A stretch of 64,000 bases of DNA from positions 62,001 through 126,000 of the forward strand of contig NZ_CP117412.1 of assembly GCF_028607085.1 (NCBI RefSeq), given 5' to 3'. Shown here piece after piece: positions 53,935 through 64,000 of this stretch. The notes below the pieces were generated by a model that worked only from the letters and a program-made list of their open reading frames with translations, was not told the origin of the DNA and did not search any database. The DNA is from Sphingomonas naphthae. GTDB taxonomy: Bacteria; Pseudomonadota; Alphaproteobacteria; Sphingomonadales; Sphingomonadaceae. The number at the start of each line of letters is the position of its first letter. The stretch's first letter is position 1. The position numbers and the translations under genes were made by a program.

Positions 53935-55308
53935 TCAGGCATATCGCGCAGAGGGCGGCACAATCACGTCCTGTTCGATCGACCGGGCCGAAATGGCAGC
54001 TGGGGTCAACGCCGCGGGGACGCAGACACCCCGGCGCGGCTTGCCGGTCAGCCGTTGCGGTCGCGCCAGGATCATCAGGTTCATAACCGCCGCGCCGATC
54101 AGGAACTCCTCCTCCGCTCCGCGAATGCCGCGCAGGTGAAGCCGCCTCATGCCATGCTTGCCCTTGGCGTCGGCGAAGAACCGTTCGACCCCCCGCCGCA
54201 ACCGCATCGACCGCTTGAAGAGGCCGGTTTCCGTTTCGGCTCTGGCAAGATCGCGGACGTCCTCGTCGTCCAGACGGACCAGGGTACGACGCCGTGCAGT
54301 CGTGCATTTCTTCCGAAGCACGCACGCCTCGCAGTCGCGGGCGTCGGCAGCATAGCGATGTACGCCGGTGGGCGGATGGAAGGCGTGGTGTTGGAGCGTC
54401 TTGCCGGTCGGGCAGGTAAAGCTGTCGGTATCCCGATCATACCTGAAGGCCGTTCGCGGCAACTTGCCCTTGGTCTGGTGCGTCCGATCGATCACGGGGA
54501 TGTGCGGAATTGCACCGTGGTCCCGCACGAAGCCGAGGAAGCCGGCGCTGCCATAGGCCTTGTCGGCAGCGACCCGCTTGGGGTGATAATCGAAACGAAC
54601 GGCCGACCGCTCGAGCATGACGCGGCCTGCATCGACCTCCTCCGCGAAGCGAGCTGGTGTTGCCTCAACATCGAGCGCGACGCCGCTCGGGGTATCGACC
54701 AGCGCATTGAGGGCGTAGCCGAACCGGCCACGCACCGTTCGCGCCGACCAGGCCGCGGCAGGATCCGTCCGAGAGACGCCTTGGAAGCTTTTCGAGCGAG
54801 CCAACTCCCAGACGGTATCTCCTGTGTCTTGCACCCATTCCCTGACCGCGCGCGACGCGTTGGCGACATACGGCAGGTAGCCAGGAACGGTCTTGCGCTG
54901 CCAGCTCGCATCAGCCGCTATGAACGACGCATCGATCGCGGCGTCTTTTCCGCCGATCAGCCCTTCACTGATGCAGAGTCGGACCGTGCTCTCGAACAAG
55001 ATCCGGAACACGTCGGCATCGCGGAAGCGACCGTGCCGGTTCTTGCTGAACGTCGAGTGGTGCGGAACCTTGTCTCCCGGCGCGAGACGGCAGAACCAGC
55101 GATAGGCTAGATTGTAGCGAAGTTCCTCGCAAAGGCGCCGTTCGGACGTGATCGCGTAGATGCGACCGATCAGGGTCATGCGGATGAGGAGTTCGGGATC
55201 GATCGATGGTCGCCCCCGCGTGCTGTAATGATCGGCCAGTGCTTGCCTCAACTCGCTTGTGTCGAGACATCGGTCGATGCGACGCAGCAGGTGGTCTGCG
55301 GGCAACAT
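53935..55308 (-). CDS. IS1182-family transposase
   Basis: It is 457 residues. N-terminal DUF772-type domain (RGRPSIDPELLIRMTLIG), DDE core with AIDASFIAAD (Asp), AADKAYGSAGFLG (Asp) and the YREK-like region ERFFADAKGKHGMRRL (Glu). The coding length looks complete. The expected terminal repeat is present on the 5' side (55421-55437) but not after the stop at 53935, where the recombinase gene begins, so the 3' end of the element is lost. Confidence 0.92.
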   Translation of the reverse strand: MLPADHLLRRIDRCLDTSELRQALADHYSTRGRPSIDPELLIRMTLIGRIYAITSERRLCEELRYNLAYRWFCRLAPGDKVPHHSTFSKNRHGRFRDADVFRILFESTVRLCISEGLIGGKDAAIDASFIAADASWQRKTVPGYLPYVANASRAVREWVQDTGDTVWELARSKSFQGVSRTDPAAAWSARTVRGRFGYALNALVDTPSGVALDVEATPARFAEEVDAGRVMLERSAVRFDYHPKRVAADKAYGSAGFLGFVRDHGAIPHIPVIDRTHQTKGKLPRTAFRYDRDTDSFTCPTGKTLQHHAFHPPTGVHRYAADARDCEACVLRKKCTTARRRTLVRLDDEDVRDLARAETETGLFKRSMRLRRGVERFFADAKGKHGMRRLHLRGIRGAEEEFLIGAAVMNLMILARPQRLTGKPRRGVCVPAALTPAAISARSIEQDVIVPPSARYA

Positions 55309-55638
55309 GGCTTCTATGGTGCGGCGGGACGCCCCTCCCCGCCCACCGCGACAGGTTGGTCACATCATGGCGGTGCTCCTTTCGGCAGGAGTAAAACGAA
55401 GGAGCAACCCGGCATGTCCGGCATTTTTCAACAGGCCCGAACGGTTATGACACCTCGGGTTACCAGCTCCGCTTTCTCACTTCTGCTATTGCGACGGGTT
55501 TCGGGATGCGTTCGACATTCCCGTTTTTCGATCCTTGTGGGACGGGATCGCTATGCCTTGGGGTGTCATTCCGCCCCCAACCGTACCGGGCGCCAGCGGC
55601 GCATTTTTCAACAGCCCCGATCGTGGCTGTTGAAAAAT
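55309..55638. mobile_element. IS1182 left end and nested IS-end remnants
   Basis: GCATTTTTCAACAG occurs at 55421 and again at 55601. At 55603-55638 two copies of the end face each other as ATTTTTCAACAGCC / GGCTGTTGAAAAAT around an 8-base spacer CCGATCGT. No gene lies here. The pattern suggests at least two insertions of related elements at the same place, with only ends of one left. Confidence 0.65.
55603..55638. repeat. Abutting IS ends (14-bp perfect inverted repeat)
   Basis: 55603-55616 and 55625-55638 are exact complements with an 8-base spacer. The right half with flank (55618-55636) also occurs at 48316-48334. This marks the junction of IS DNA with the permease gene end. Confidence 0.8.
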
Positions 55639-56733
55639 TCAACGCGCGCTGTTGGTGCTACTCCAGATATTCAGCCCTCCATAAAGCGCCAAGAGTGCCA
55701 TAAGCTTGGCCAGTGGACCAAATACGTCCTCCAAGCTTGCACCCATCTGATTTAAAGGAACGAAAATATGCATGGCGCAGGTGGCGGGGGAAAACCAGGC
55801 CAGCGCAGAAAGCCAGCCCGGCATTGCGTGGAGTGGCCAGGCAAAACCCGCTAGAAACACGAGCGGCACAGATGTCGGCAACAGGATCTTCAATGCATCG
55901 TCGCCGCTGTTGAACAACTTACCCAGCAACAGCCCGAGCGCCGCCACGGTTGCCGCAAAGACAGGAACTGCGACGAGGAGCGCCGGCAGCGCCCCAGCGT
56001 GCGGGATATCCTGGATCCAATAGATCATTCCGAAATAGAGCAAGGCGGACAGCACGCCGACAAGGGTGCATGCCGCCCACATGCCAAGCGCGGCTGCGAC
56101 GGACATCCGCCGTTCCCTGCGGCGTTGGCGTTCCGCCATCAGCCGGGCGCAGGCGAGCAGTAGCGTCTGCTGCAGGATGATGTTGGCGACCGCCGGGAAA
56201 ATGTAGTCGCGGTAGCCGAGCGTGGTGTTGAACAACGGGTGGACAAGGATCGTCGGCATCGCCGCAAGCCGGGCACCGCCTTGCGCCGCGCGCCAGCGGT
56301 CGATCGCGCCGGCCAGCGTCGCGGCGACGCCGGTGCCGATGCTCTGCGCACGCAGCAGATACGTCCCGTTCAGCCACAATGCGATGCCCGCCGTACCTCT
56401 ACCCGTCAGCGCGCCGCCGGTAAAATCGCGCGAGATCAGCAGGATGCCGTCCGCCTTCCGGTCACGCACGGCACCGCGCGCTGCGACCATGTCGGGAACC
56501 TCGCCGACGACGCGGACGCTGCGCGTTTCGCCAAGATCGTCGAGCAGGCGGCGCGCGGCGGTCCCGCCGTCGCCGTTCACAACCACCACGGGCAGCGCGC
56601 GGGCGGACTGGTGCGCATAGGGCGCTGGATAGTAGAAGGCATAGAGCAGCACCGACAATATCGCGAGCGATAGGAGATCGCGCGTCGTGACGATCGTCAA
56701 TAGCGTGTGTTCGAGAGCCGCGCGAAACGTCAT
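55639..56733 (-). CDS. ABC-2-type permease (second of a pair)
   Basis: It is 364 residues. One N-terminal helix (about 18-38), a large extracytoplasmic domain (about 45-165) and five or six helices from about 180 on, as in the YhhJ/YhiN-like ABC-2 exporters. It overlaps the upstream permease by four bases. The stop lies exactly at the IS end, so the last few residues (WSSTNSAR) may be altered by insertion. No ATPase gene lies in the operon. Together the two permeases could form a heterodimer. Confidence 0.85.
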   Translation of the reverse strand: MTFRAALEHTLLTIVTTRDLLSLAILSVLLYAFYYPAPYAHQSARALPVVVVNGDGGTAARRLLDDLGETRSVRVVGEVPDMVAARGAVRDRKADGILLISRDFTGGALTGRGTAGIALWLNGTYLLRAQSIGTGVAATLAGAIDRWRAAQGGARLAAMPTILVHPLFNTTLGYRDYIFPAVANIILQQTLLLACARLMAERQRRRERRMSVAAALGMWAACTLVGVLSALLYFGMIYWIQDIPHAGALPALLVAVPVFAATVAALGLLLGKLFNSGDDALKILLPTSVPLVFLAGFAWPLHAMPGWLSALAWFSPATCAMHIFVPLNQMGASLEDVFGPLAKLMALLALYGGLNIWSSTNSAR

Positions 56734-57869
56734 CGGCCTTCCCGGTCACGGCGGATAAGGATTATGCCCAGGCCGCCTGCGACCAGCGGATACAGCAGCA
56801 GCGTTCCCGCTGCCTTCAGGAACGGCCCGGCGGAGGCACCAAGCACCTGATCCATCTGCAGCGTCATGTAGTGGGTCAGCGGCAACACCTGGTGCCAGAC
56901 CCGCGCGAACAGGCCCGCGCCATCGATCGGCAGCGAAGCGCCCGAATAGGCGAGCGCCGATCCCGCAACGATGACAGCGCCCGACAAGGCGGTGGCAATG
57001 CTGCGCGTTGCAGCGACGAGCAATAGCGCGATCGCCGCGGTGGCGACGAACAGCAATGCTTGCCCCGCCACGATCAGCAGCAGCGATCCGTCTGCGCGAT
57101 AGCCTTGTGCGAGCGTGAGCCATAGCAGCCACGCAACACCCCAGAACGTTCCCGCAATCACATGAGGAGAAAGCCGCCCGGCCAGCGTTGCCGCAACGCC
57201 ACCCCGTACGGCGAACGCGGCGAACGAGCCATCGTTCATCAGCACCCCGATGCTTCCTACGCAGGCAACCGCGATCAGCAGGTGCAACACCCCCGGGCCC
57301 AGCAGCAGTCCTAGATACCATTCCAGGCTGAGCGATGGATTGCCGAGCACCGTCACCTGCACGCCGGGCAGCAACGCCGGATCGATCGCGGCCAGTCCCG
57401 CCAGGCCGTGGGTGGACGCCCCGTACTGCGCCAGCGTGGCGGCGACTGCAACGCGCAGGTTCGTCGCCGCGAGTGCCCCCGTCGACAGGAACGCCGCCTG
57501 ATGGAATATCTCGACCGGGGCGCGACCGGCATTACGGGTTCCGACGCCCCGGGGGATCACCACGGCGGCGACCGCCTGTTCGCGCCGCATCATCGTCACC
57601 GCGGCAGCGACGTCGGGCACCCGGCCGACAATCCGCAGGCCTGGGGAGGCGTCGATGTCGCGCACGATGCGCCGGGCCAGCACGCCGCCGTCACGATCTA
57701 CAATGACGGTGGGCAAATGGTGCGGCGATCCGGCAGATAGCATCGCTGCCATCGCGCCCAGCAAGATTAGCGGCATGACAGTCAGCAACGCCAGATCGAC
57801 GGGCGTCGAAATGATGCGGCCCCATTCGGCCCGGCACGCATTATACAGGGTGACCATCGCGGGCGTCAC
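56730..57869 (-). CDS. ABC-2-type permease (first of a pair)
   Basis: It is 379 residues with the same layout: helix near 25-45, an extracytoplasmic domain with VIVDRDGGVLARRIVRDID, and a C-terminal bundle (about 205-375). It is homologous in plan to the gene downstream. ATGA overlaps on both sides show tight coupling to the HlyD gene and the second permease. Confidence 0.85.
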   Translation of the reverse strand: MTPAMVTLYNACRAEWGRIISTPVDLALLTVMPLILLGAMAAMLSAGSPHHLPTVIVDRDGGVLARRIVRDIDASPGLRIVGRVPDVAAAVTMMRREQAVAAVVIPRGVGTRNAGRAPVEIFHQAAFLSTGALAATNLRVAVAATLAQYGASTHGLAGLAAIDPALLPGVQVTVLGNPSLSLEWYLGLLLGPGVLHLLIAVACVGSIGVLMNDGSFAAFAVRGGVAATLAGRLSPHVIAGTFWGVAWLLWLTLAQGYRADGSLLLIVAGQALLFVATAAIALLLVAATRSIATALSGAVIVAGSALAYSGASLPIDGAGLFARVWHQVLPLTHYMTLQMDQVLGASAGPFLKAAGTLLLYPLVAGGLGIILIRRDREGR

Positions 57870-58882
57870 GCCGGCGGTTCGAACAGGACGCTCATGCCCG
57901 GCCGCAACCCTTGCGCCCCGCCTTCGGGTTTCAGCGTGACCTCGAACGCGCGGACGTCATAGCCGCGCGACTGGCGCGTGGCGCGCCATGTCGCGAAACT
58001 GCCCTGCGGCGCAATGTGGCTGATCCGGAACCGTAGGTCGCGGCCGAGCGCCGGGACGTGGCCGACGAGAAGGCGACCGGGCGTCAGTCCGTGATAGGCA
58101 TCTTCGCGCACGGTCAACGCAACGTGCGGGTGATCGACGTCGATCACCTGAAACGCCGGCAGGATCGGGCTCACGATCTCGCCGGGGCGCAGCAACCGGC
58201 GTGACACCTCGCCGTCGATCGGAGACACGAGCCGCTTCTCGCGCTCCAGTGCGGCAGCGGTCGCGGTCGCGGCTCCGGCGGCGCGGACCTGCGCGTCGGC
58301 GATCGCGCGATTTTGCGGCCTGATGCCGGCGCGTGCCTTGTCGTACTGGGCCTTTGTCGCTTCCGCCGCACGGCCGGTGCTGTCGCGCGCGGCATGAGCC
58401 TCGTCGCGGCGCTGCGCGGCGATAACACCTTGCGCATAAAGCGTGTCGGCACGGCGGCTCGACACCGCGGCCAGGTCGGCCGTCGCCTGTGCGGCCAGCC
58501 AGGTGGAACGCAACGAGGTCAGGTCTTCCGCCCTGGCCCCCTCGATCGCCACCGATTGCAGCGCCCGTGCGCTGTCGAGCGCCGCCTGCGCCTGCTGCTG
58601 ACCACCATCGATCTCCGGCGCCGACAGGATCGCCATCACCTGCCCGCGGCGGACCCGGTCGCCCTCGTCCACCGCCAGCGTCTCCACACGAGCCAGCGCC
58701 TTGGTGGCAACATTGATCTCATCTGCCTCCACCTCGCCTTGCCATTGTTCGGGCGCGGGACGGCTCGCCAGCCACAGCCCGAGGCCGACGATTACGACGA
58801 CGACGGCGATGCCGATCCACAGCAACCAGCGCGCGCGGCGCGAGTGGGCGGCAGGATCGACGTCGACTGCCGGATCGGTCAT
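57866..58882 (-). CDS. HlyD/EmrA-type periplasmic adaptor
   Basis: It is 338 residues. Single membrane anchor near 20-42 (WLLWIGIAVVVVIVGLGLWL). The lipoyl half-motif VDEGDRVRRGQVMAIL, a long helical hairpin (about 90-215) and the second half-motif VSPIDGEVSRRLLRPGE follow, then a beta-barrel. It links the ABC-2 permeases to the outer-membrane TolC-like protein. ATGA overlaps join it to both neighbours. Confidence 0.9.
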   Translation of the reverse strand: MTDPAVDVDPAAHSRRARWLLWIGIAVVVVIVGLGLWLASRPAPEQWQGEVEADEINVATKALARVETLAVDEGDRVRRGQVMAILSAPEIDGGQQQAQAALDSARALQSVAIEGARAEDLTSLRSTWLAAQATADLAAVSSRRADTLYAQGVIAAQRRDEAHAARDSTGRAAEATKAQYDKARAGIRPQNRAIADAQVRAAGAATATAAALEREKRLVSPIDGEVSRRLLRPGEIVSPILPAFQVIDVDHPHVALTVREDAYHGLTPGRLLVGHVPALGRDLRFRISHIAPQGSFATWRATRQSRGYDVRAFEVTLKPEGGAQGLRPGMSVLFEPPA

Positions 58883-60351
58883 GGGCGGGCATCCGTGGGC
58901 AGATGGATGTCGGCGCCGGCGATATGATCCGCGAACGTATCGAGTTGGCCCGATGCCGACAGGAGCGCCGCCAGCGCGAGGTCATATTCATAGGCGATCG
59001 CCGCCCGCTGCGTGCGGGCCGTGGCAAGGGCGGCTTCCGCGGCCAGCACCGCGGTCATCGTTGCTTCTCCCTCGCGGAACGCAATCTCCTGCACTCGCAA
59101 ATTCTCCTGTGCAGCCGCGAGCGAACTGTCGGTCAGCAGAAAGGCGCGCCGTGCCGATTCGACCAGATCCCACGCGCGCAACGTCGCGGTAATCGCGCTC
59201 TTGCGCGCTTCACGCGCGGCATCGTCGGCGGCCGCGGCGTTTGCCTTTGCTGCGTTCAGGGCATGGCGACGATCGACGTTGGACAGCAATGTGTAGCGCA
59301 CGCCGACTCCGACCACCCAGTCAGGCTCGGTCGGCAATGCATTCGATCGGTTGAGATTGTATTCGCCGAACGCGAACGCCTGCGGGCGGTAGCGCGATCT
59401 CGCAAGATCCACGCCGGCGCGGGCGACCGCACCTGCCGCGTCGGCCTGCCGCGTCTGTGGTAATCTTGCCTCGCCGCCGGTGAAGCTGCCCGCGGGCGCA
59501 AGCGGATGACTGACGACAAAGAGACCGGTGGTGGGGCGTACCCGGTCCACCTCAAGCAGGCGGGCAAGGTCGTCCCGGGCGCCATCGTGGGCGATCGCGG
59601 CGCGCTGCCAGGTTCGCTCGGCGGTGTCGCGCGCGACCTGCGCCTCGAGCGTGCGCGCGTGAGCAACGACCCCCGCGGCCTCCATTTTGCGAACGTCCGA
59701 CAGCAGCCGGTCGAGTGCGTCGCGGCTTTCCCGCGCCGACGCGGCGAGCGCCGCAGCGGCCTGTTCGCCGAAATAGACGCGGATGAGGTTGAGCTGCGCG
59801 AGGTCGCGCCCTTGCGCCGCGCGCGCCGCGGCGATCTCAGCGGCTGCGCGGGCGCCGCGCTGGATCGCAGGTATCGCTCCGCCGGAATAGAGCGGCAGTA
59901 CCCCCTGCACCGTTGGACGGAACACATCGTCACGGTAGCGATAGCTCAGCTGGTCGGGGATCGCGGTGAACAGGCCGGGCAAAGCCTGCCCGATCCTGCC
60001 CACGATGTCGGATGCAATCTGCTGAAACGCAGGCGGGACGGTCATCGGGATGCCGGACAGGAAATCCTGCGTCGCATCGCGCGCATCCTCTTTCTGTCCG
60101 GTCAGATCGACCGCCAGCGTCTTCTGATATTCAATGTACTGCGCCGACGCGGTAACGACCGGACGTCTGAGCGTCGCTACCGCGGCTGCCGTTTCGCGCG
60201 CCGCATCTTCTGCGTGGTCGGCGGCCGCCAGCGCTGGCGAGGTCGTCTCCAGGCGTCGGCTTGCCGCATCGAACGTCATGGCGACGTCCTGTGCTGCCGC
60301 GCCGGCAGCGATTGGCATCAGCGATGCCGCGATTATTGTCGCGCGTGCCAT
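58879..60351 (-). CDS. TolC-family outer-membrane efflux protein
   Basis: It is 490 residues from the ATG at 60351, which gives a signal peptide (MARATIIAASLMPIAAGAAAQ). Longer in-frame starts up to 60423 are possible. The mature part shows TolC repeats of long helices with Ala/Arg/Glu-rich coiled coil and RPTVQGVLPLYSGGAIPAIQ, and a second half with YLLN-like RYTLLSNVDRRHALN. It provides the outer-membrane channel. It overlaps the HlyD start by four bases. Confidence 0.88.
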   Translation of the reverse strand: MARATIIAASLMPIAAGAAAQDVAMTFDAASRRLETTSPALAAADHAEDAARETAAAVATLRRPVVTASAQYIEYQKTLAVDLTGQKEDARDATQDFLSGIPMTVPPAFQQIASDIVGRIGQALPGLFTAIPDQLSYRYRDDVFRPTVQGVLPLYSGGAIPAIQRGARAAAEIAAARAAQGRDLAQLNLIRVYFGEQAAAALAASARESRDALDRLLSDVRKMEAAGVVAHARTLEAQVARDTAERTWQRAAIAHDGARDDLARLLEVDRVRPTTGLFVVSHPLAPAGSFTGGEARLPQTRQADAAGAVARAGVDLARSRYRPQAFAFGEYNLNRSNALPTEPDWVVGVGVRYTLLSNVDRRHALNAAKANAAAADDAAREARKSAITATLRAWDLVESARRAFLLTDSSLAAAQENLRVQEIAFREGEATMTAVLAAEAALATARTQRAAIAYEYDLALAALLSASGQLDTFADHIAGADIHLPTDARP

Positions 60352-60441
60352 CCCGAACCCTGCCCAGCCCCCGATCATCGTCAATTCTGTCATCCCGGCC
60401 ATACGCGGCAATCGACGAACCACGACCGCGATGATCCTGTT

Positions 60442-61605
60442 CTATTGATGATCGAGACGATCCGCGATGGCAAGATCGGCCGGGGTGGGCGGCGTCTTGC
60501 GCCACGAACCAGTGCGTCCCCGCTCGACGCCATAGGCGTACAGGCGTCGCATGTAGGTCTTCTCGAACAGGCGGTCGCTGGGTGCGACGTCGTTCCCGAT
60601 GAACGTCAAGTTCCAGTCGATGCCGTGGCGATGCGCGTAGACGTAGCTGGTTTCCGCCAGTGTCAGCAGCGCTGCCTGCTGGTTGAGCGCGAAGGCGCGC
60701 TTCAGGATCGGGACGAGCCGCGGCGTAACCATCTGAAAATCGCCGCCAAGCCTGCTGTTCATCAACAGGTAGACGTGCAGCCGGGCGGCGTCCCCGATCG
60801 GCGCGTCGCTGACCGCGAGCTGCGGCGGGATTGCGAGGATGCCAGCGGTCGTCCCGCCATCGGCATGAAGCTCGCGTACGGGCGCCCCGTTGCTGGACGC
60901 GTCGATCACCACCGGGGGAAACACCACAGGAATGGACGACGATGCCAGCAATACCCGCCGGAACAGCTCGACCTTGTCCGGCAACATGCTGGCGGCGATT
61001 GCCCCCATATCCCAGATCACGCTGCGTTGCGCGTCGAGATTGGCGGTGGCGACGAACAGGCGGCGCCCCTTGGCCTGCTCCTCCGCGATGCGCGCTACAA
61101 GTTCCGGTGTCACCTCACGTGCGATCAGTTTCGCAAGCGGTGCGGTGGAGGCGACACTGGTCGATCCCGGTATCGCAAGTGGGAAGCGGGGATGGAAGAT
61201 GTCCCTTGCGGATACGCTGGTGTAAAACCGGGCGATCGATGCATCGCCTTCCTTGCCCAGAAAGGCAAAGGGAGCGATCAATGCCCCGGTGCTGACCCCG
61301 GTGACAACGCTGAACTCCGGACGCGTGCCGCTCTGCGTCCAGCCGTTGAGCACACCGGCGCCATAGGCACCCTCGTCAGCACCACCCGAAAGGGCCAGCA
61401 TCGTTACCGGCTGCCCGGCCGGCACATCGGGTCGCATCCGCTGCGCGGCATCCGGCAGATCCGCCCAGAAACGGACCTCCGGCGCACCGGCAATAGCGGC
61501 CGCGGCACTTTGCGCCCCGGTGAACGGCACGCGCTCCACCGTGGTACATCCACTGACAAACGCCATTGCGGCTATCGTAACGGCGCGGAGGATCTGTCTG
61601 GTCAT
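60442..61605 (-). CDS. Patatin-like phospholipase, lipoprotein
   Basis: It is 387 residues. Lipobox-type N-terminus (MAFVSGC|T). Patatin features: oxyanion loop SGGADEGAYGAGVL, nucleophile GVSTGAL (G-x-S-x-G) and the catalytic Asp in HADGGTT. It is probably anchored to a membrane and hydrolyses lipid acyl esters. It overlaps the thioesterase by four bases and is followed by the TolC gene, which suggests lipid-related export or envelope remodelling. Confidence 0.9.
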   Translation of the reverse strand: MTRQILRAVTIAAMAFVSGCTTVERVPFTGAQSAAAAIAGAPEVRFWADLPDAAQRMRPDVPAGQPVTMLALSGGADEGAYGAGVLNGWTQSGTRPEFSVVTGVSTGALIAPFAFLGKEGDASIARFYTSVSARDIFHPRFPLAIPGSTSVASTAPLAKLIAREVTPELVARIAEEQAKGRRLFVATANLDAQRSVIWDMGAIAASMLPDKVELFRRVLLASSSIPVVFPPVVIDASSNGAPVRELHADGGTTAGILAIPPQLAVSDAPIGDAARLHVYLLMNSRLGGDFQMVTPRLVPILKRAFALNQQAALLTLAETSYVYAHRHGIDWNLTFIGNDVAPSDRLFEKTYMRRLYAYGVERGRTGSWRKTPPTPADLAIADRLDHQ

Positions 61606-62051
61606 CGCATGGCTCCACTAGCCGTAGTTGCTTCAGTGTCACGAAGATAGAAATGCTGAGCAAGATCGGGACGAATACGCACAAGTTGCCTGGACCCGCG
61701 ATCGATGCACACCAGCGTAGACTCAACTATGGCAACGTCTTCGCTGTTTCGCTCGAAGCGAGTTTCAAAGTGGGCACGACATCCTTGATGACCAATGACG
61801 CGCACTACGGCGACGATCAGATCGTGCAGCACGGCGGGCCTGTGATAGACCACGTCATGACGGTGCGCGATCCAGGCGAGCGTCTCTACCTGTTCTGGCG
61901 GCGCGGTCTTGCGCCAATAGGCGTTGACCGCTTCTTGCATCCACATGAGATAGATGGCGTTGTTCACATGATCGAGATCGTCGATCGCTCCCGGACCGAC
62001 CCTGATCGGATGCCGATATTCAACGTAGCGGCCCGGACCATGGTCAGGCAT
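61602..62051 (-). CDS. Hotdog-fold acyl-CoA thioesterase
   Basis: It is 149 residues from ATG 62051, two bases after the DyP stop. 4HBT/YbgC pattern: IRVGPGAIDDLDHVNNAIYLMW with the D-x-x-H-V-N-N catalytic region, then WIAHRHDVVYHRPAVLHD. FadM/YbgC relatives hydrolyse acyl-CoA thioesters. In this operon it could supply or remove acyl groups for a lipid substrate. Confidence 0.87.
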   Translation of the reverse strand: MPDHGPGRYVEYRHPIRVGPGAIDDLDHVNNAIYLMWMQEAVNAYWRKTAPPEQVETLAWIAHRHDVVYHRPAVLHDLIVAVVRVIGHQGCRAHFETRFERNSEDVAIVESTLVCIDRGSRQLVRIRPDLAQHFYLRDTEATTASGAMR

Positions 62052-62052
62052 C

Positions 62053-63426
62053 TCAGTTCCACGATCCTGCCGCGATCCATCGCAAAGCGGTGAGCGAAGG
62101 CATGAACATATATTCGCCGCCACGCAGCCGGTTGTACGTGGTGACACCGTCTATACGGCGACGAACCGGCTCGGCAGGCACGGTGAAGCGTCCGGGTTCC
62201 TCATGCAGGCCGACCACAGGATCACGCTCCTTCCCCAGGTCGATGAAATTACCGCGATTGATCCATTCCTGCTGCAGAAACTCGATCGTGTCGAACGCAC
62301 GTGCCGAGATGAAGATGAAGAAGATGCCGCGATCGTTCTCGCCATCGTCGGCAGCAGTCAGGTCGGCCGACCATTTCGGACCGAAGGTGGAAGAGCGGCG
62401 GATGATCCGGTGGATGTTTTCGTCGGTCAGGATCGTCAGTCGCTCACCGCGCGGATTGAGGCGGCGCATGTGCGCGCCATGCGGACAGACAATTCCCGCC
62501 TTGTCGCCCGAGAAATCAAAGTCGTTGCGCCGGGCCGGATCGGCGCCCAGCTCTTCGTCGTCGCGGGTCGGCGACAGGATCAGCGGTGCCCCCGATCGCC
62601 AGCGGCCGAACATCTTGGCGGCCAGCAGCTCCTGCGCCGCCTCATCGTTTGCCTGGCCGCGCACGAAATCGTTGAATGCGCCCGGTCGACTGTCATACTT
62701 GCGCAGCACGACATAGGAACCGTTCCGCCCCAGCGCGTCAGGCTGCGGTATCTCCAGCGGCGCTCCCGTTTCGCTGTCCTCGCCCAGGATGAACTCGCCC
62801 GGCGCGATCGCGCGCTCCTGCCCCGGCTGTGGATCGACCCCGGCACCCGCGACGGTCGGCTGCGACACCGAGTCACGAAAGCCGAACGGGTTCTTGGCAT
62901 CCGCATCGGCTCCGAAACGATGTGTTCCGATCAGCGTCACGCCGCTCGATGCATGATATTCGGACATTGCCCGGTCGGTGGCTTCGTCAAGCCGGGCCTG
63001 ATCCGAAGCGAAGATGGTGAGCGCGATGTGGCAGCGATTGTCGCGATACGCCTCCTCCCATTGCTCGGGAGCATTCTCTCCCGCGTCACGCAGCTGCTCG
63101 GCGCGCGCCGCCATTCCCTGACGAAACGACAGAGGAAAGCTGGCGAGCGAGCCTTCGGGCACCCCAAGCGCCTTCAGACCCGCGTGACTGATCGCCACAC
63201 CGGTCCATGCCGTCAGCTCTTCGGTCCAGTCTGCTGCGGCAGGGATATGCGGCGCGAGCCTTCGCAGGAGATCGCGGCCACCCGCGGCGTCGTCGACGTG
63301 AAGCATTGCGTGAATGCCGACATACGGTTCAGGCCGCGCGCGCAGGATCAACGCCTGAATGTCGTCCAGCTGCAGCGTCACGCGGTCAGGGCGGAAGCGG
63401 TCCTTGAGGTGCTGGAGGATACCCAT
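62053..63426 (-). CDS. Dyp-type peroxidase
   Basis: It is 457 residues from ATG 63426, which overlaps the upstream stop. DyP signature GFRDSVSQP: the family GxxDG has Asp intact but Gly replaced by Ser. Heme-proximal His in CPHGAHMRRLNPR, and a conserved Arg in the GEYMFMPS vicinity. It oxidises aromatic or dye-like substrates with peroxide. No signal peptide, so cytoplasmic. Confidence 0.92.
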   Translation of the reverse strand: MGILQHLKDRFRPDRVTLQLDDIQALILRARPEPYVGIHAMLHVDDAAGGRDLLRRLAPHIPAAADWTEELTAWTGVAISHAGLKALGVPEGSLASFPLSFRQGMAARAEQLRDAGENAPEQWEEAYRDNRCHIALTIFASDQARLDEATDRAMSEYHASSGVTLIGTHRFGADADAKNPFGFRDSVSQPTVAGAGVDPQPGQERAIAPGEFILGEDSETGAPLEIPQPDALGRNGSYVVLRKYDSRPGAFNDFVRGQANDEAAQELLAAKMFGRWRSGAPLILSPTRDDEELGADPARRNDFDFSGDKAGIVCPHGAHMRRLNPRGERLTILTDENIHRIIRRSSTFGPKWSADLTAADDGENDRGIFFIFISARAFDTIEFLQQEWINRGNFIDLGKERDPVVGLHEEPGRFTVPAEPVRRRIDGVTTYNRLRGGEYMFMPSLTALRWIAAGSWN

Positions 63427-63929
63427 CAGTAATCCACTCCGTGCGGCACCGACACCTGCCTCGACAGCAGGGCCAGCGCGTCCCGTGTCGCGGGGTCCAC
63501 AGCGGTGTTGCCGGCCATTGTATCGAGGAAGGCATCGAGCGCCGTCTCCATCCGCTGCAGCCGCCGCACGTCCACAACCGTCACCTGCGGGTTGGCGACG
63601 AACCAACCGGCCGCGTCGATCTGGTGATCGGCGATGAAATCCTTCACGTCAGGCGAGGCAATCCCCGGCCACCCTTCGACATTGGCGAACAAGAGATCCA
63701 TCAGGTCAGGGATCTTGGTCGCGAAGTCGTTGATATAGGTATCCCAGTCACCGTCGTACGCCGTAGCGAACAGGATGCGCGTGTCGTCGTCGAACAGGAC
63801 GAAACGCATGTCATGCAGCGTCGAAACTTTCTGGGCGCCGTCGAAATTGCCGCCGGTCAGGTTGAAGATGCGACGCAGCCGGTCGCCGCCGCCAGGCTTG
63901 AGTTTGGCGATTGCAGTCAGTTCGGACAC
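63426..63929 (-). CDS. Uncharacterised protein preceding the DyP peroxidase
   Basis: It is 167 residues from GTG 63929. The frame is open to the window edge (…NPLFKGTAGSAG), so the true start may lie outside. Features: LTAIAKLKPGGGDRLRRIF, then VLFDDDTRILFATAYDGDWD and YINDFATKIPDLMDLLF. These resemble the small proteins or domains found next to DyP and related peroxidases. It overlaps the DyP ATG by one base. Function unknown. Confidence 0.7.
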   Translation of the reverse strand: MSELTAIAKLKPGGGDRLRRIFNLTGGNFDGAQKVSTLHDMRFVLFDDDTRILFATAYDGDWDTYINDFATKIPDLMDLLFANVEGWPGIASPDVKDFIADHQIDAAGWFVANPQVTVVDVRRLQRMETALDAFLDTMAGNTAVDPATRDALALLSRQVSVPHGVDY

Positions 63930-64000
63930 ATTGCCCGATTGCCGGCCGGCCCGGCCCGCCGACCCGGCGGTGCCCTTGAACAGAGGGTTGTGGTTGCGGA
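63930..64000 (-). other. Open frame continuing to the window edge
   Basis: The same minus-strand frame as 63426-63929 stays open here (NHNPLFKGTAGSAGRAGR), so it is either the 5' part of that gene or a leader. It cannot be decided without upstream sequence. Confidence 0.35.

Follow-up and report, generated by a model that had tools for sequence, protein, structure and literature searches.

The stretch analysed here (the window) covers 64,000 nucleotides of Sphingomonas naphthae, positions 62,001 to 126,000 of contig NZ_CP117412.1. The contig is 185 kb long in a 4.3-Mb genome, and near the right-hand end of the window a minus-strand operon encodes an ABC-2 exporter together with a DyP-type peroxidase and acyl-handling enzymes. 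Its nine genes are, in order, a catalase-family gene, protein X, DyP, a thioesterase, a patatin, a TolC-family outer-membrane channel, an HlyD adaptor and two permeases, perm1 and perm2. The catalase-family gene and the start of X fall outside the window, the operon being larger than the window shows; positions out there are given on the stretch L001, where position equals window position minus 50000.

Four genes make up the pump. The permeases, perm2 (55639–56733, 364 aa) and perm1 (56730–57869, 379 aa), both exceed the cut-off of PF12698 (ABC2_membrane_3, ABC-2 permease superfamily) at 4.3e-36 and 6.6e-23, respectively. In the same operon are an HlyD/EmrA-like periplasmic adaptor (57866–58882, 338 aa; PF16576 at 9.2e-11 and EmrA, 8zar, at E 2.8e-10) and the TolC-family channel (58879–60423, 514 aa by the longest open reading frame (ORF); PF02321 at 5e-29), the gene set of a tripartite Gram-negative exporter, and all four are ORFs without interruption. 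It is generally assumed that ABC-2 permeases require an ATPase. An ABC-ATPase scan of the locus found no ATP-binding subunit between or beside the operon genes, and the operon itself does not encode this subunit with its permeases as a complete ABC transporter does. The preliminary description of this DNA had listed two ABC-2 permeases, an adaptor and a channel with no nucleotide-binding subunit, which the Pfam profiles and the ATPase scan bear out.

The remaining genes on this strand are a patatin-like phospholipase (60442–61605, 387 aa; PF01734 at 7.8e-18), a 4HBT/YbgC-like acyl thioesterase (61602–62051, 149 aa from an internal ATG; PF13279 at 6.6e-14; annotated at L191:12070-12519 in plasmid unnamed2 of Sphingomonas sp. 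NIC1), the DyP-type peroxidase (62053–63426, 457 aa; PF21105 above cut-off), protein X (231 aa; 63426–64000, continuing beyond the window to L001:14121) and, outside the window, the catalase-family gene (L001:14144-15232), which precedes X as the first gene of the operon. A TetR gene (L001:15300-15968, also outside) is divergent from it. Four-base overlaps join perm2 to perm1, perm1 to HlyD, HlyD to the channel and the patatin to the thioesterase, and 18 bases separate the channel from the patatin. The starts of DyP and the thioesterase were corrected to ~63426 and ~62051, giving lengths that match the NIC1 annotation, a 1-base gap between the two genes and a 1-base overlap of DyP with X; because the true starts lie there, the long overlaps of the two ORFs are not real. 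The GTG at 63929 is internal to X, the true start being the ATG at L001:14121 (window 64121). The same-strand set of closely joined genes described previously thus stands from DyP to perm2, but it counts nine genes instead of eight, and the start at 63929 given for its first gene was an internal one.

The exporter clade and its coupling loop

Gene neighbourhoods show that cassettes without an ATPase form a conserved clade. Searching 199 family genomes with perm1, we obtained many weak matches and 12 strong ones (at E 6.2e-42 or better), the latter spread over 11 genomes, our own included. At all 11 strong loci beyond our own genome the channel, HlyD and both permeases are present, and no ATPase is closer than 3.4 kb; the six weak-match loci that were fetched carry HlyD, an ATPase and a permease. 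A scan of named genomes recovered 80 exporter loci, mostly from sphingomonads and also from Brevundimonas, Caulobacter, Hyphomonas and one Lysobacter. One of the 100 clade entries, L108, has an ATPase within 2 kb, on the opposite strand; the 100 entries are 92 distinct records, with eight counted twice and several near-copies among them (e.g., L103-L106, L136). The figure for control entries is 23/26, or 17/20 distinct places with six counted twice, and the three misses are L193, where the scan did not recognise the permeases and RbbA is annotated, plus L019 and L033, whose upstream sequence is short.

The pattern extends past the family. A profile search across the phylum matched 121/398 genomes at E 1e-15 or better, and we sampled the best 29 loci besides our own, one per genome. 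With 1.5-kb flanks an ATPase was present in 0/29; stretches of 10–15 kb showed one in 3/29, within 2 kb in two of them (L301, on the opposite strand, and L288), and this wider figure of 2/29 is the one we use. Plasmid cassettes with no annotated ATPase were found in Acinetobacter variabilis (L200 4327-9177) and Enterobacter cloacae pECL_A (L199 5980-9178), and both group within the clade in the tree. The permease coding sequence (CDS) annotated on pECL_A is ~728 aa long, as if both permeases were fused. Unique sequences of perm1 (79), perm2 (80) and controls (35) fell into three perfect splits with support of 0.994–0.999, the perm2 clade reaching 0.999 and the perm1 clade 0.994.

In ABC-2 exporters the loop between transmembrane helices 2 and 3 (TM2-TM3) is the contact with the ATPase. 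The aligned loop columns E, E, G and T-or-S are filled in 35/35 controls, whereas perm1 has the first E in 73/79, the second E in 11/79 and the G in 48/79, and in perm2 the loop is shorter and the first E is absent from the four commonest residues. Aligned against the controls, the clade therefore lacks the conserved coupling motif of a complete ABC transporter. In our own perm1, V and L replace R209 and E210, which most clade members retain. Since the clade is nearly always without an adjacent ATPase and its motif is degenerate, the pump most likely needs no dedicated ABC ATPase and would work without one.

The fold was modelled for perm2 alone of the two permeases (pLDDT 80.6), showing an ABC-2 fold with ~7 residues separating TM2 from TM3. 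Its best structural matches were ABCH-9C with ceramide (Z 20.4, root-mean-square deviation 10.0), ABCG1 (Z 19.3) and ABCA4 (Z 18.5), and the predicted perm2 fold is that of lipid exporters. When residues conserved within each permease were listed, perm1 stood out for E183 (76/79) and H196 (74/79), which lie in TM2 by homology and occur in 0/35 controls, and perm2 for Y31/Y35/Y39/Q189; the list held no other standout for a proton path. Should the pump be ATP-independent, E183 and H196 of perm1 would be candidates for its new energy coupling. A HlyD/TolC/permease clade that nearly always has no ATPase close by, in the family as in the phylum sample, and whose contact motif is degenerate makes the power source of such pumps directly testable.

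The catalase–X–DyP module

The first three genes of the operon recur together elsewhere. Among 31 selected loci bearing X, a catalase-family gene is present in 31/31 and DyP in 30/31; in L097 X is truncated and the DyP match absent, and in L201 the catalase-family and DyP partners are fragmented. Judged by this recurrence, catalase, X and DyP are a separate mobile module. At L064 (G515:C52) three X matches stand in a row upstream of the DyP gene, and the ORFs that match DyP in L066, L069 and L071 measure 1007, 1202 and 1184 aa and coincide with the X-like region or adjoin it, which would fit a fusion of X with DyP in some relatives. Protein X has no Pfam match, and a profile search of solved structures gave it no hit better than E 0.1; a fold model of X built from five sequences was discarded (pLDDT 39.2).

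Catalases bind haem with a distal His and a proximal RxxxY. The catalase-family protein scores 17.2 bits against Pfam Catalase, below the cut-off of 25, and a His and an RxxxY in it align with these residues. Its nearest relatives keep the His of RDAHAK and, L097 excepted, the Tyr of RxxxY. The peroxidase scores 97.2 bits against TIGR01413, just under the cut-off of 100.5, and is related by sequence to the class V structure DrDyP (8re3, E 2.7e-157); in alignment with 8re3 its distal GXXDG site reads GFRDS, with the Asp retained and the last Gly replaced. No signal peptide was seen by eye in either protein. The N-terminus of the patatin reads as a lipoprotein signal (..FVSGC), and its GVSTG and DGG motifs are present.

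To describe the surroundings of the module we fetched 19 X-bearing plasmid records of the 35 with a match and recorded gene neighbours within ~9-10 kb. By annotation and a Pfam check, oleate hydratase was found in 8, 3-hydroxyacyl-CoA dehydrogenase in 9 and thioesterase in 9 of them, ATPase-less permeases with HlyD in 6 (including the NIC1 near-copy) and an RbbA-type pump in 1. It had been proposed previously that the operon exports an oxidised or acylated aromatic or lipid product. The acyl/lipid part of this is supported by the genes for oleate hydratase and 3-hydroxyacyl-CoA dehydrogenase that accompany the module on other plasmids; for the aromatic part the genes seen gave no support, and export of a dye or aromatic compound was rejected as no operon gene was seen to favour it. 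According to the accessible part of PMC10820274, the physiological role and substrates of DyP peroxidases are unclear; the recurring set of DyP, a small catalase-family protein and oleate hydratase or other acyl enzymes gives these peroxidases a concrete lipid context.

Strong X matches occur in 4/397 family genomes, namely our own, G669, G098 and G056, the last with two loci. In G056 the exporter adjoins one module and lies ~10 kb from the other, and in G669 and G098 no exporter was found in 20 kb. By comparison with these 4/397 genomes, 7/80 named exporter loci hold the module within the fetched stretch, a contrast that counts for the lipid-stress reading given below; still, with the module at 7/80 exporter loci and several X loci without the exporter, the two are often found apart. 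In L124, L127, L131 and L195 a second exporter is separated from the module by short channel and permease fragments, apparently the decayed remains of an older copy. Genes for resistance to copper or heavy metals are near the module in L195, L197, L207, L208 and L209.

A proposed role in fatty-acid stress and export, and rival readings

On balance, we lean towards reading the operon as a mobile fatty-acid/lipid-peroxide stress unit coupled with an ABC-2 export pump that has no dedicated ATPase. In this scheme an acyl compound would be the signal for the TetR repressor. The patatin, a lipoprotein by the look of its N-terminus, may release acyl chains from damaged envelope lipids, and the thioesterase may release them from coenzyme A (CoA) or acyl carrier protein. 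The catalase-family protein, X and DyP would then act on (hydro)peroxides of unsaturated fatty acids by reducing or rearranging them, and expulsion of the free or oxidised fatty acids would fall to the HlyD/TolC/two-permease pump. The operon structure and the properties of the clade come from the sequences themselves; substrate and export direction, like the energy source, are what we infer here, and it is the neighbours in other plasmids that point to unsaturated or oxidised fatty acids. The accessible part of an RNA-seq study of Sphingobium sp. ba1 lists oleate hydratase and catalase activity among the enriched Gene Ontology (GO) terms up-regulated by nickel (PMC5557971). This response fits the lipid-stress reading, the link being made at the level of GO terms and not at the locus.

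Several observations weigh against this reading. Remnants of the coupling motif persist in unaligned searches: RE(2-4)GT is found in 34/79 perm1 and 4/80 perm2, versus 30/35 controls, and [RK]E[RKQ]..G in 30/80 perm2, and the strict pattern E[RK]E..GT is itself present in merely 13/35 controls. In the conserved-residue list we saw no intramembrane Asp or Glu that both permeases keep. At L288 (G867:C13:1-10400), a fused permease ORF with HlyD-like ORFs on either side is followed after 1.5 kb, on its own strand, by a 220-aa ATPase, and this locus is a possible exception to the ATPase-less rule. The module is missing from the fetched stretch at 73/80 exporter loci; conversely, L181-L183, L192, L193, L197, L198, L202-L207 and L209-L211 hold the module with no ATPase-less exporter in the fetched stretch (for L183 it lies ~10 kb off), and on Haematobacter plasmid pOT1-4 (L193 7830-16862) the module is followed by HlyD, RbbA with its ATPase and a permease. 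In this last locus an ATPase-powered pump occupies the place of the ATPase-less one. Our own genome has no oleate hydratase (PF06100, 0/1), so the operon here is not part of an oleate-hydratase island. Finally, an orphan ABC-2-type ATPase of 308 aa (G000:C1:3530750-3531673; L248:3951-4877) could serve the permeases in trans.

This orphan is the best case for an unlikely rival, that the permeases share an ABC ATPase encoded elsewhere. The genome offers 44 PF00005 matches, 41 of them over the cut-off, including a partial one within an 891-aa ORF of the operon's contig, and we took inventory of 20 stretches around its ATPases with a crude gene caller, two being read by ORF list. The ORF that follows the L248 ATPase reads by eye as L-aspartate oxidase and not as a permease, and the partial coupling motif in perm1 would suit such sharing, but the degeneracy of that motif and the short perm2 loop do not. 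The L248 ATPase has orthologue-level matches in 58/59 family genomes, our own included (G018 has merely a 40% match), whereas strong exporter matches occur in 11/199. Since the ATPase is core and the exporter rare, this ATPase is not a dedicated partner, and an ABC-2 permease at C1:2478756 with no ATPase match nearby could be its true partner. The preliminary suggestion to look for the ATPase elsewhere in the genome therefore led to a candidate, but not to one dedicated to this pump. The strict coupling pattern had no match in our own ABC-2 permease stretches L262, L263, L264 and L266, which says little. Distinctly unlikely, in our view, is that the exporter handles solvents or drugs in general and stands by chance beside an H2O2-stress module, with fatty acids uninvolved. 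The scarcity of the module at exporter loci, the metal-resistance genes near several modules and the nickel response of Sphingobium ba1 at the level of GO terms (PMC5557971) would all agree with it. Oleate hydratase, 3-hydroxyacyl-CoA dehydrogenase and thioesterase nevertheless recur beside the module, and the patatin recurs in the two closest plasmids.

A further rival, stated in the preliminary description, is that an insertion sequence (IS) at the 3′ end removed the ATPase gene and left the pump dead. An IS1182-family transposase (53935–55308, minus strand; NF033551 at 1e-101) does lie downstream of the operon, with no part in its function, and IS-end-like 16-mers are found in the gap at 55421-55436, 55601-55616 and 55625-55640. 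Only the last of these touches the perm2 stop codon (55639-55641), so the IS described as lying exactly at the 3′ end is corrected to an IS-end-like sequence at that edge, the transposase ORF itself ending ~330 bases from the perm2 stop. Two facing IS-end-like sequences (55601–55640, without strand) mark the 3′ edge, and they are shared with NIC1, whose plasmid carries a 10.5-kb operon-bearing stretch 99.5% identical to ours. The identity extends ~120 bases past the perm2 stop, IS-end-like sequence included, and other genes follow: in NIC1, on the opposite strand, a gene annotated 'ATP-binding protein' that adjoins a response regulator and is probably a sensor histidine kinase; on our contig, among others, the IS1182 transposase and, judged by eye, ORFs for a VIT-family protein and a recombinase. 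The ABC-ATPase scan of the NIC1 stretch gave no match. As both versions of the edge are without an ATPase, the IS did not remove one. The relatives carrying the same cassette lack it too, no ATPase normally following their second permease, which is the outcome named beforehand as removing the idea of a loss. With all four pump genes open and perm2 alignable over its full length with 11 relatives, bar a few C-terminal residues, we reject this explanation as extremely improbable.

From the 99.5% identity to the NIC1 plasmid, our own contig can be read as plasmid-like. A related IS-end-like copy lies inverted at L001:17030-17123, beyond the window. Together with the sequence at L001:5533-5645 (window 55533-55645) it flanks the operon, and these inverted flanking sequences suggest that the operon moved as one unit. 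In the NIC1 record (L191 9978-10695, 16263-17389), X is unannotated and perm1 appears as two separate CDS; sequencing errors may be the cause.

Going beyond the lipid-stress reading of this operon, we offer a wider proposal more tentatively, at slightly short of an even chance: that a widespread group of tripartite exporters across the Pseudomonadota kept the ABC-2 fold, shed the ATPase and became secondary or otherwise ATP-independent lipid exporters, with E183/H196 as the candidate coupling, and that among their uses would be an exit for oxidised or unsaturated fatty acids from the plasmid-borne catalase–X–DyP module.

Comparison with known systems

Among the open-licence papers listed, none appeared from its title and abstract opening to describe an HlyD/ABC-2 exporter lacking an ATPase, or the catalase–X–DyP module, and PMC13104710, in its accessible part, concerns a different system, with an ATPase. 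The accessible part of PMC10820274 assigns DrDyP of Deinococcus radiodurans (8re3) to class V. This enzyme is the best solved relative of our DyP. The whole catalase–X–DyP module is likewise present in D. radiodurans, accompanied by a 3-hydroxyacyl-CoA dehydrogenase and TetR, and an ATPase-less exporter, thioesterase and patatin of our types were not detected in that stretch. The short catalase-family protein, with its aligned His and RxxxY, is like the catalase-related haem proteins cAOS and HPL that process hydroperoxides. Unlike them it resembles catalases weakly, and no lipoxygenase was noticed, though no search was aimed at one; a hydroperoxide-processing activity of our protein would be putative.

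For the exporter, the nearest layouts are RbbA/YhiI/YhhJ and YbhFSR of E. coli, which consist of HlyD, an ATPase and ABC-2 permeases. Our exporter shares with these types the HlyD adaptor and the ABC2_membrane_3 permeases, both of which match the RbbA model weakly (34-35 bits against a cut-off of 1050), and an RbbA-type version adjoins the same module in Haematobacter. It differs from them in having no ATPase subunit or domain, in permeases that fall into separate clades and in the degenerate coupling motif. The YhgE/Pip proteins are ABC2_membrane-like and ATPase-free, and they resemble our permeases in carrying an ABC-2-type membrane domain without an ATPase of their own. Unlike YhgE/Pip, the exporter described here brings together two different permeases, HlyD and TolC, and does so in a fixed operon of Gram-negative bacteria.

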